From positions 1 to 60,764 of the forward strand of contig JBDKUO010000014.1 of assembly GCA_039679645.1 (NCBI GenBank): 60,764 bases of DNA, read 5' to 3'. Shown here piece after piece: positions 34,355-58,234 of this stretch. A program made the translations under genes and the position numbers. The notes beneath the pieces were generated by a model, which saw only the letters and a program-made list of their open reading frames with translations, did no database searches and was not told where the DNA came from. Each line of letters starts with the position of its first letter. Positions within the stretch are counted from its first letter, which is position 1. The stretch comes from Armatimonadota bacterium (GTDB taxonomy: Bacteria; Armatimonadota; UBA5829).

Positions 34355-34644
34355 CCTGCTTCTCCCCTTCTCAACCTTATCGAGTAATGTCCCGGCGGTT
34401 AAAACCGCGGCAACAACCACACAAAGTCGGCCTGCGCCGACTTACCTCTCCCCTGGCCCCTCTCCGACGCGGAGAGGGAAACATGTGTGCAAAAGCATCA
34501 CGCTCATGGGGGATAAATATCCCCCATACCCCGGTCCGGGATTCAAATCCCGGACCATCAGAAATCCCGGACCATCAGTGCTCAGGCCTCCAGGTAAGAT
34601 ACCTGGAGGCATATCAACCATCAACATCTTTCGACGTTATGACG
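34355..34644. repeat. Repeat-filled gap between murD and ftsW
   Basis: This gap holds a GCGGTT/AACCGC hairpin (34395-34408), an AGTCGGC/GCCGACT hairpin (34425-34442) and a CTCTCC...GGAGAG palindrome. Hairpins GGGGGAT/ATCCCCC (34506-34527) and GGTCCGGGATT/AATCCCGGACC (34533-34556) follow, then a partial direct duplication of the last (34563-34578) and the palindrome GCCTCCAGGTA/TACCTGGAGGC (34586-34610). The octamer array starts at 34633. No gene is seen. Confidence 0.75.
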
Positions 34645-44906: not shown

Positions 44907-45170
44907 CGTCCGAGGCAGGAATCCCTCGGACGATCAGGATATCAATAAACGAGATAAAGCGTCAGATACTTGGAGACCCTAACATGATCGTAGAGTAGAA
45001 AGCACAAGATTCCGGCAGGTGTGTCCATGATATTTGCGTCCGGTGCAGGAGATCAGGACTGTAGCTTGAGTCCCCGTAGGGGGACTTTGTGTAGTTGTGG
45101 CAGCGGTTTCAACCGCCCTGCGACTGAAGTCACGGCTGCAACAACACAAAGTCGGCCTTCGCCGACTAAG
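44907..45170. repeat. Hairpin repeats between mraZ promoter and GH172 genes
   Basis: The gene-free stretch 44810-45220 holds the hairpin GTCCGAGG/CCTCGGAC with a GGAAT core (44908-44931), an AGTCCCC/GGGGACT hairpin (45069-45086), GCGGTT/AACCGC (45103-45116) and AGTCGGC/GCCGACT (45150-45167). The last two also occur together at 34395-34442 and 55866-55940. Confidence 0.75.
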
Positions 45171-45220
45171 AAGTGTGCTGTTCACACTCAGTCAAATTCG
45201 CATTAGGCGTAAATACGGAG

Positions 45221-54790: not shown

Positions 54791-55741
54791 ATGGCAGGAA
54801 AAGGCGTCAGCGCGCGGTTAATATCGCAGATATGGAAAGCGTTCAAGCAGCTTAACCCGGGAAATGTGGGCAGGGAGGCCGGCATTGCAGTAAAGCTGGG
54901 GATCATCTGCTCACAAAGCGTGGTTCAGGATGCAGCCGCATATCTGCTTAAAGATGATATGGCAGCTTATGACAGAGCAGGTGATGCGCTGCTGCTGATT
55001 CCAGAGCCGAGCGACCCGGCGGCAAATGATTTACTGCAGAAGTGCGATATAGTCCTTAAATGGATTGGCAGCCCAGAGGCATTTCCTGCGATCAAACAGG
55101 AAAGAATATTCGAGTTTGCCAATGGAAGCGATCTTGAACCTGTAATAATGGATATACTGCGCGCGCCCTATCTCAAATATGCTCACCTGCCCCTTGCAAG
55201 AGCATTCCCCGCATTTCGGCCTGAGGTAAGTGTGCAGGTGATACAAAATGTGAGCGTGGAAAACGCAATATTCGTCATATCCACTTCCTTGGGAAATGTG
55301 ATTCCAAATCCTCTGCAGCCGCTGGCGTCTGTCGCCGAGTCGGTGGGTGATCTGGCTGTCCTGACGGCCAATCAGTTCCGAATGGTCTTCAGGCTGGCGG
55401 CTGCGTACGACAAAAAGCTGGGCTATAAAGAGCAGATGCCTGAACTGATGACCGTGTTGGGCGCTGCTTTCGGATGGAGGTCCATTGCACGGGAGCTTGT
55501 CGGAATGATCCCTCTGGGTGGGGGGATTGTCCCGAAAGCGGCCATTGCCTTTGCCGGGACATGGGCAATTGGCGACGCTGCGGCTTATTATTACAGGACT
55601 GGCCGGAAGCTCACTAATGAAGAGATAAGGCAGCGCTTTGAAGCAGCCATGACCAAAGGCAGAGCAAGCGCTGAGGACATTCTGGGCAAAATGAAGCAGA
55701 CATATGGTGAGCAGGTAGGGCGGTTCATTAAGAAAGGCTGA
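54791..55741 (+). CDS. DUF697-like membrane-associated protein
   Basis: This 316-residue protein has a C-terminal half that resembles DUF697. LAVLTANQFRMVFRLAAAYDKK, then WRSIARELVGMIPLGGGIVPKAAIAFAGT and WAIGDAAAYYYRTGRKL form two amphipathic or membrane helices and a helix hairpin. DUF697 usually follows an Era-like GTPase domain, but here the N-terminal 150 residues have no P-loop. It probably associates with the membrane. Function is unknown. Confidence 0.75.
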   Translation: MAGKGVSARLISQIWKAFKQLNPGNVGREAGIAVKLGIICSQSVVQDAAAYLLKDDMAAYDRAGDALLLIPEPSDPAANDLLQKCDIVLKWIGSPEAFPAIKQERIFEFANGSDLEPVIMDILRAPYLKYAHLPLARAFPAFRPEVSVQVIQNVSVENAIFVISTSLGNVIPNPLQPLASVAESVGDLAVLTANQFRMVFRLAAAYDKKLGYKEQMPELMTVLGAAFGWRSIARELVGMIPLGGGIVPKAAIAFAGTWAIGDAAAYYYRTGRKLTNEEIRQRFEAAMTKGRASAEDILGKMKQTYGEQVGRFIKKG

Positions 55742-55811: not shown

Positions 55812-56027
55812 CTATTCCACCCAGGGCAAACGCATCAAAATGCTATTCACCTTGTTTTGGCCTCTGCGGTTAAAACCGCGGCTAAGAAAAACACGAAGTG
55901 TCCCTTCGGACACTAAGATTTCAGTCGGCGGAGGCCGACTTTGTGAGTTTACAGCAGTGACTTTAGTCGCAAAGGCACCATTTTGCCAAACACAAAATTA
56001 AGATGCGTTTGCCCTGCTATTCCACCC
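55812..56027. mobile_element. MITE-like element with terminal inverted repeats and flanking duplication
   Basis: AGGGCAAACGCATC (55823-55836) and its exact inverse GATGCGTTTGCCCT (56002-56015) bound about 193 bases. The 11-bp sequence CTATTCCACCC stands directly outside on the left (55812-55822) and, one base away, on the right (56017-56027), as a target site duplication would. The inside has no open frame but carries GCGGTT/AACCGC, AGTGTCC/GGACACT and AGTCGGC/GCCGACT hairpins. No transposase is present, so it would need one elsewhere. Confidence 0.65.
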
Positions 56028-56083: not shown

Positions 56084-58234
56084 ATGCATATTATCCCGAT
56101 CACAAACCTCACGGGGCTGTATGTGTCCCAGACGCCTGAAGGGTTCCACCCTGCCAAATATCACCCAGAAAGCAAATTCTTTATGAAATTGAATCAGCAA
56201 TCCAATGGAGAAGAAATCCAGAGCTCCCATTCGGAAAGCCCATACTCCATCACCGAGAAAATACGTGACTATTTCCAGATATCTCAAACCACAGGGCTGA
56301 TAGCACTGGCGCTGCTGGTGGGAGCAGGCTCCGGATTGGGAGCAGTATTGTACGTCCATATGATCGAATGGTCAAAGCGGCTGTTCATGGGCGGGTCGCA
56401 TAGCCTGATGCCTGCAGTCGGACCGCTATGGATCGTCATCTCCACAACACTCGGCGGAGCTGTCTGCGGACTGCTGGTACATTATTTTGCTGCCGGCAAA
56501 GGTGGAGACGGCCTGCCGGAAATTATGGCTGCGGTGGCCGAAAACGGCGGAAAGATCCGCGCGAGGTTTGCAGTCACTAAGATCGTTACGTCCGCAATTA
56601 CTATAGGATCAGGCGGGTCTGCAGGCCGGGAAGGACCGATGGCGCAAATCGGAGCTTGCCTGGGTTCATCTATCGGACAAATACTCAGGCTGGACGACGA
56701 TAAGATCAGGCTGCTGGTGGCATGCGGATCGGCAGGAGCAATAGCATCGGCATTTAATGCTCCGATTGGCGGCGCATTGTTTGCTCTGGAAATTATACTG
56801 CGCACGTTTAATACACGATCTTTTGGAGCAGTGGTGCTTGCAACAGTTGCCTCCGCGACGGTCTCGCATGCATTTCTCGGCAATAGCCCCGCGTTCATAG
56901 CACCCAAATATTCATTGAAAAGCGCTTGGGAGCTGCTGCTGTATGTTCTGATGGGAGTGTTGTGCGCTTTTGCAGCAGTGCTTTTCATAAAGATGTTTCA
57001 TGGCGCTGAAGCTCTCTTCAAGAAGCTGCGCATATGGTGGCCGATAAAGCCCATGATCGGAGGAGCGCTGGTCGGCGTGATGGGAATATGGATGCCGAGA
57101 GTGCTGGCGGGCGGATATGACACAATGACCTGGGCGCTCGCGGGAAAAGCCTCCTTGATCGTTATGGCGGCACTAATCATCTGCAAGATGATCGCGACCT
57201 CGCTTACATTAGGCTCAGGCGGGTCGGGCGGGACATTTGCTCCATCGCTGTTCATTGGCTGCGCGATGGGCTATACATTCGGCCATATTGTAAACTCAAT
57301 CTTTCCGCATATAACAGCCGGACCGGGAGCATATGCGCTTGTGGCGATGGGAGCGTTCTTTGCGGGAGCAGTGAGGGCGCCGATGACCGCGATCCTGATC
57401 ATATTTGAAATGACTAACGACTACAATGTTATGCTGCCGCTTATGGCGGCGGTCGTCGTAAGCACCATCATATGCGAACGAGTTTGTAAAGGTGATATAT
57501 ACACACTCAAACTCCTGCAGCGCGGCATAGACCTGACTAAATCACGCGCAATGGACCGACTGGACAACATTACGGTTCGTCGGGCTATGACAAGTGACTT
57601 CGAGACAGTCGACGTCAACATGCCGCTAGGCGAGCTTATAAAGAAATTTGCCGACAGCGGCCATCATGGATTCCCGGTGACTATGAGTGATGACAGGCTC
57701 TGGGGAATCGTAACGCTTAAAGATATCGGGGCAATGTCTGAAGATCAGATCAACAGCCTCACCGTGCGCGATGTCGCAACAAGCCCAGCGCGCACCGTCC
57801 GGCCAGATCAGAGTCTGCATGAAGCTATAAAGCAGTTCGGGATCGGCAATGTAGGCAGGCTGCCTGTGGTGGATCGCTCTGACCCTGACAAACTGATTGG
57901 AATCCTGCGCAGGAGCGACATAATAGAAGCATATGCAGCGAATTTGCGCAGACGAGAGAAAAACGAGCATTCGGCGGCGTTTTCAGTCGATGTAGAATCG
58001 CCCGGCATCATGCCCTTAGCTCTCACGCTCGACAGAAACTCACCCTGGCGCGAAAGATGCGTGGCTGATCTGGGTGTTTCAAAGGATGCGCTGATTGTGT
58101 CAGTCGAGCGGGCAGGCAAGGCCATACTCCCACGTGGGGATACAATACTCGAAGCAGGCGACAAGCTTACTCTAGTCGCTGAGTCCCAGGCAGCGACCAA
58201 AATACGCGAGCAATGGGAAAACTGGGCGAAATAA
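56084..58234 (+). CDS. ClC chloride channel/antiporter with CBS pair and TrkA-C domain
   Basis: This 716-residue protein has a ClC membrane domain (about 60-470) with GSGGSAGREGPMAQIGA, including the gating Glu in GREGP, and GSGGSGGTFAPSLFIG. Two CBS domains follow (about 500-625; RRAMTSDFETVDVNMPL and VRDVATSPARTVRPDQSL). A C-terminal TrkA-C/RCK-C-like domain (about 640-716; DLGVSKDALIVSVERAGKAI) ends the protein. The CBS and TrkA-C parts suggest control by nucleotides or ions. The start is uncertain: ATG 56084 or ATG 56183 (MKLNQQSNGEE), neither with a good ribosome site. Confidence 0.92.
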   Translation: MHIIPITNLTGLYVSQTPEGFHPAKYHPESKFFMKLNQQSNGEEIQSSHSESPYSITEKIRDYFQISQTTGLIALALLVGAGSGLGAVLYVHMIEWSKRLFMGGSHSLMPAVGPLWIVISTTLGGAVCGLLVHYFAAGKGGDGLPEIMAAVAENGGKIRARFAVTKIVTSAITIGSGGSAGREGPMAQIGACLGSSIGQILRLDDDKIRLLVACGSAGAIASAFNAPIGGALFALEIILRTFNTRSFGAVVLATVASATVSHAFLGNSPAFIAPKYSLKSAWELLLYVLMGVLCAFAAVLFIKMFHGAEALFKKLRIWWPIKPMIGGALVGVMGIWMPRVLAGGYDTMTWALAGKASLIVMAALIICKMIATSLTLGSGGSGGTFAPSLFIGCAMGYTFGHIVNSIFPHITAGPGAYALVAMGAFFAGAVRAPMTAILIIFEMTNDYNVMLPLMAAVVVSTIICERVCKGDIYTLKLLQRGIDLTKSRAMDRLDNITVRRAMTSDFETVDVNMPLGELIKKFADSGHHGFPVTMSDDRLWGIVTLKDIGAMSEDQINSLTVRDVATSPARTVRPDQSLHEAIKQFGIGNVGRLPVVDRSDPDKLIGILRRSDIIEAYAANLRRREKNEHSAAFSVDVESPGIMPLALTLDRNSPWRERCVADLGVSKDALIVSVERAGKAILPRGDTILEAGDKLTLVAESQAATKIREQWENWAK

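Follow-up and report, generated by a model that had tools for sequence, protein, structure and literature searches.

A probable ISAs1-family miniature transposon carrying a REPIN-like palindrome pair in an Armatimonadota genome

REP and REPIN palindromes are generally regarded as dependent on RAYT tyrosine transposases. A REPIN is an inverted pair of REP sequences (PMC3116915), and the arrangement of REP sequences with RAYT genes has been described (PMC3733652); in REPIN/BIME elements each unit consists of one palindrome of 20–40 bp. Insertion sequences of the ISAs1 family have ends of another kind: ISArsp11 has the inverted repeat CAGGGCTGATGCAAAGTCG and a 10-bp direct repeat (PMC6305408), and the ends of an ISAs1 example in the literature start with CAGGGCTGATGC. 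A review of miniature inverted-repeat elements (MITEs) does not mention ISAs1 (PMC10969869). A MITE with a repeat interior instead of a decayed transposase is BrickBuilt of Porphyromonas gingivalis, whose cargo is reported to be a minisatellite (PMC4596501).

The element studied here lies in a stretch of 60,764 nucleotides, the window. It is very probably a non-autonomous ISAs1-family transposon (MITE) whose cargo is a REPIN-like palindrome pair. Copy numbers were obtained by searching its own genome (G000, 3.41 Mb in 69 contigs). The features in the window were the following:

55812–55821, no strand: left target-site duplication CTATTCCACC, 10 bp, with the boundary set by the 10-bp duplications at L002, L005 and L059
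55822–56016, plus strand: MITE of family A, 195 bp, non-coding
55822–55836, plus strand: left terminal inverted repeat CAGGGCAAACGCATC
55866–55970, plus strand: REPIN/BIME-like dimer, an inverted pair of two-hairpin units
55866–55879, plus strand: outer hairpin 1, GCGGTTAAAACCGC
55897–55914, plus strand: inner hairpin 2, AGTGTCCCTTCGGACACT
55923–55940, plus strand: inner hairpin 3, AGTCGGCGGAGGCCGACT
55957–55970, plus strand: outer hairpin 4, GTGACTTTAGTCGC, with a decayed tag in front of it that reads ACAGC instead of the GTAGC of most copies
56002–56016, minus strand: right terminal inverted repeat
56017–56026, no strand: right target-site duplication CTATTCCACC, 10 bp
34395–34511, plus strand: free module of the same kind, with no MITE ends
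44992–45216, minus strand: two further free modules of this kind, likewise with no MITE ends

The original prediction of a MITE was right, and its 14-bp inverted ends and 11-bp direct duplication are real but shifted by one base, the actual values being 15 and 10 bp. The eleventh base, a C, is part of the element at the left end but of the flanking DNA at the right end, and it was not counted in the duplication because in other copies the 10-bp duplication directly abuts CAGGG. The inverted arms (55822–55841 and 55997–56016) are 20 nt long and 90% complementary, with the outermost 15 positions perfect, and they start with CAGGG as the ends of an ISAs1-family MITE should. A perfect 15-bp inverted repeat flanked by a direct repeat of at least 9/10 occurs exactly once in the window, while 30 base-shuffled windows contained none with such flanks and none even with the inverted repeat alone. 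No ORF of at least 80 aa overlaps the 195 bp, as had been predicted, and multiple near-identical copies exist, as described below; both are expected of an ISAs1-family MITE. Upstream of the element, a 316-aa ORF (54791–55741) had no Pfam or NCBIfam match.

Five full-length copies of family A, 92–100% identical, were found at unrelated sites in G000, together with about eight further copies that have decayed or run into a contig end (four of them are truncated in the latter way). The original prediction had proposed a search for same-ended pairs at a spacing of about 190 bases; multiple copies were indeed recovered, at about 195 bp and each with its own target duplication. These duplications are 10/10 at L001, L002 and L005 (CTATTCCACC, ACCCAATACC and TAAAATAGGG), 9/10 at L004 (TTTTTAATAT/TTTGTAATAT) and 8/10 at L003 (CATGGTCGGC/CATAGTTGGC), so that, as in ISAs1-family MITEs, a target duplication of 8–10 bp differs among the copies. 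Allowing at most one mismatch, GGGCAAACGCATC matched 31 times in G000 versus 2 for the reversed control pattern. L001 and L002 diverge by about 1% and have different target duplications, which suggests fairly recent movement. Several contigs (C6, C7, C25, C26, C32, C34, C45 and C46) end inside MITEs, about 124–149 bp in; therefore, the assembly underestimates the copy number. In G004, a genome of the same genus, the loci orthologous to L001, L002, L005 and L059 are recognizable and contain neither terminal repeats nor element. The expected empty sites were thus found as absences and not as base-perfect empty sites, because the flanks have diverged (roughly 75–89% identity) and the junctions themselves have drifted.

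Which transposase would act on these ends was analyzed in the own genome and in its relatives. A profile search detected no PF13808/ISAs1 transposase in the G000 assembly; the predicted transposase gene with matching ends was found in relatives and not in the own assembly. Intact ISAs1-family insertion sequences of relatives, one of them in the same genus, have the ends CAGGGC.A.CGCAT and 9–10-bp duplications. In the same class, the element at L125 has the ends (T/C)AGGGCGAACGCATCTA and a 9-bp duplication; in the same genus, that at L128 has the ends CAGGGCAATCGCATG, near-same with two differences, and the 10-bp duplication AATGAGAGCA; in the same phylum, that at L148 has the ends CAGGGCGAACGCATCTTAAT, and that at L129 carries the ends of the MITE too, with a 9–10-bp duplication. 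The transposases at L125, L128 and L148 scored 384–425 bits against NCBIfam transpos_ISAs1 (cut-off 70). Autonomous ISAs1 elements with the same ends were therefore seen in relatives only (L125, L129 and L148, plus the decayed L093 and the near-same L128), and no intact one with exactly the ends of the MITE was found in the same genus; in G004, which belongs to it, positions 8 and 15 of the ends are different.

The same genus (G001) also contains a relic, L093:1501–1885, which is a decayed and internally deleted ISAs1 copy of about 385 bp. Its first 21 bases are the left end of the MITE (55822–55842), and its right third encodes a piece of 37 residues from the ISAs1 C-terminus that shares 54% identity with L128 (E 7e-11; 45 bits, versus at most 21 in 200 shuffles). 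This relic is, to judge by its sequence, an intermediate between an insertion sequence and a MITE. Because the ISAs1 ends and 9–10-bp duplications of the relatives match those of the element, and the left end of L093 is identical, the element was classified as an ISAs1-type MITE. It shares with ISAs1-family insertion sequences and the MITEs derived from them the ends that start with CAGGGC, the duplication of 9–10 bp and the 21-bp left end of the relic. By contrast, it is geneless and 195 bp long, and its interior is a palindrome pair and not leftover transposase.

Two candidate helpers were rejected. The transposase beside the CAGGGCAAACGCATCTTAAT end in L090 belongs to an unrelated, truncated and nested insertion sequence with the ends AACCAATTGGTGCTAGTT, which has its own ends in other genomes, and the two PF01609 transposases of G000 are not ISAs1 and have unrelated ends. 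It could be argued from these same genes, the only PF01609 ones of the own genome being outside ISAs1 and the one in L090 adjoining such an end, that the ends came from another DDE family (e.g., IS4, IS5 or ISL3) and resemble ISAs1 by convergence. This reading is highly improbable, given that both sets of genes have ends of their own, that several ISAs1 elements have the ends of the MITE with 9–10-bp duplications, and that the relic joins these ends to an ISAs1 C-terminus. A separate insertion sequence of about 1 kb with the ends AACCAATTGGTGCTAGTTT was also observed in other genomes of the phylum (L115, L116, L122 and L118); the N-terminal part of its transposase, as read in L090, had no Pfam match. 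A literature search with the terminal repeat sequences returned only a coincidental string match in a Caulobacter paper, unrelated by its title.

The interior of the ISAs1-type MITE was analyzed as a family of its own. The dimer matched model R1 with 108 bits (E 2.4e-21), this sequence being part of the training set of the model. An alignment of 22 dimers from eight genomes (107 columns) showed strong covariation: standard pairs occupy 95.8% of the pair cells, and both sides changed in 73 cells versus 26 in shuffles, a control that kinship among the dimer sequences can inflate. The signal was destroyed by sliding the partners. At several positions of the two inner hairpins, three to four different pair types occur, and the fold of the interior as DNA has a z of -8.2. 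The tag beside the palindrome, for which GTAG (or GTRG/GYAG) would be expected in a REP, can be recognized as GTAG in one of the two units in most copies; it is degenerate elsewhere, with GTTG, TTAG or GTGG in others and ACAG in the copy of the window. Among the loci L001 to L021 of the own genome, free dimers usually have a GCGGTT hairpin followed by a GTCGGC hairpin, and the MITE copies and L014 have GTGTCC instead; the centre of the dimer seems to have been inverted once.

The name REPIN/BIME-like was given to this interior on account of relatives, in which the pair flanks genes for IS200-like (RAYT-type) transposases, in the arrangement described for REP and RAYT. In common with REPIN/BIME elements and their RAYTs, the interior consists of two palindromic units in inverted orientation, is dispersed and intergenic, and lies beside Y1 (IS200-like) genes in relatives; the GTAG tag of REPs is kept only in part. 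It differs from them in having two hairpins per unit, about 50 nt, in sitting within a DDE-type MITE and in the lack of a matching RAYT in its own genome.

The same inverted pair also occurs free in many copies. The covariance model detected dimers in 19 of 61 genomes, and free modules without MITE ends are numerous in G000 and present in 18 of the 60 other genomes searched. The matches per genome, listed up to about 65, take in both strands of each palindrome, so the 63 in G000 correspond to roughly 30 dimers, about a dozen of them in MITE copies and the rest free. As the original prediction had noted, the hairpin modules recur elsewhere in the window, at 34395–34511 and 44992–45216, there without inverted ends: neither site matched GGGC.AACGCATC. 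Its proposal that transposition spread the modules holds for the dozen or so MITE-borne dimers but not for the free ones, which flank IS200-type genes in relatives. MITE transposition covers only part of the spread, because the free copies lack MITE ends, and most of the dispersal is better explained as being of the REP/REPIN type.

The association with RAYT-type genes was observed in several relatives. In G020, the gene at L157:1417–1857 for a 146-aa Y1 (IS200-like) transposase has three dimers on each side, and its 153-aa homologue in G016 has one on each side. Dimers also adjoin RAYT-type genes in G029 and in G002, of the same genus, where a single gene beside a dimer is broken into two frames (L229 and L243, contig C93); this broken gene suggests that the tyrosine transposase may have been lost in the genus. 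A dimer was found within the fetched flanks (E ≤ 0.01) at 13 of 30 RAYT loci, L229 and L243 being one broken gene, versus none of the 33 loci with ISAs1 or other Y1 genes that served as controls; since the model was trained on some RAYT-flanking dimers (L218/L157, L219/L065 and L221/L067), only the other RAYT loci are independent evidence. No RAYT of the matching group was detected in G000, the sole genome without one among the nine dimer-rich genomes sampled. The association of dimer richness with RAYT had a Fisher p of 0.0003 at a threshold picked after seeing the data, and that of presence or absence of any dimer was weak (p = 0.09).

Allowing one mismatch in the ends revealed another family, B, in G000. 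It is 207 bp long, with the ends CAGGGC(G/A/T)AACGCATC, and its copies in the own genome are:

L059:1499–1705: family B copy, with the 10/10 target duplication GGAAACTGGC
L035:1499–1705: family B copy
L057:1309–1515: family B copy
L044, L047–L049, L052–L054 and L056: partial copies of family B

The interior of family B differs from that of family A and likewise contains hairpins, including GCAGATTT..AATCTGC and GGCATCTCTGATGCC. It did not match the dimer model R1; therefore, divergence from family A does not by itself account for family B, and its interior is possibly a second captured palindrome pair. One set of ends with different interiors indicates that the ends would be what is recognized.

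These data bear on whether the element could be a REPIN cluster mobilized by a RAYT, its outer inverted repeat being just one more arm of the REP fold and no transposon end. The REPIN-like interior and the dimers that flank RAYT-type genes in relatives fit such a reading. Nevertheless, it is very unlikely: the CAGGGC ends are missing from the free dimers, these same ends flank both the family B interior and ISAs1 transposase genes, and target duplications of 10 bp are what DDE transposition would leave, whereas IS200/REP elements are not known to make any. Finally, a functional RNA with a regulatory or attenuator role, conserved ahead of the ClC channel gene at 56084 and flanked by a direct repeat due to chance, would agree with the intergenic position 68 bp before that gene and with the strong RNA fold of the element (z -9.5), but it is extremely improbable, and already refuted as a locus-specific element, as the same 195 bp lie before unrelated genes with other duplications, the G004 orthologous locus lacks them and Rfam gave no match. 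A secondary effect of the MITE on the neighboring gene is possible. The ClC gene itself gave only hits of 43–44% identity, in other phyla.

For the ISAs1-type MITE with a palindrome cargo, a plausible origin would be an ISAs1 copy that lost its gene by internal deletion, for which the half-deleted relic in the same-genus genome offers a model. Before or after the deletion of the gene, a palindrome of two units, of the kind found with IS200-like (RAYT) transposases, would have arrived between the ends. An ISAs1-family DDE transposase acting in trans would then bind the CAGGGC(A/G)AACGCATC ends, cut out or copy the 195-bp unit and insert it with a 10-bp staggered cut, and each later jump would also copy the palindrome pair with no need of the transposase of that pair. 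As the autonomous helper is absent from the assembled genome, the family may now be idle or reliant on an unassembled or transient helper.

As an ISAs1-type MITE, the element adds a family to a class that is well known. Its novelty, judged against open-access full texts, lies in the combination of a MITE with a REPIN-like dimer as cargo; an earlier description elsewhere is possible. BrickBuilt is a parallel in design, but the cargo here is a REPIN-like dimer that is also found outside the MITE. A REPIN-like pair carried by a DDE-family miniature transposon provides a concrete case in which to test if REP sequences can persist after the loss of their own transposase by travelling on a different element. 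It is also a practical warning that RAYT activity cannot always be read from the number of REP copies.

A broader and decidedly tentative proposal, which we consider rather doubtful, is that, in this lineage, palindrome pairs are captured again and again by ISAs1-type MITEs, which become the means of their dispersal once the palindromes have lost their own tyrosine transposase, a transposase swap by which REPINs would become DDE-type MITEs. If this were true, family B, which has these ends around a different inverted set of hairpins, would represent a second and independent capture.

Additionally, a third and shorter element type with the ends GGGCAATCGCATC was detected in G000 in a few copies (L040 and L051). 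The ends of these copies resemble those of the intact same-genus ISAs1 element at L128.
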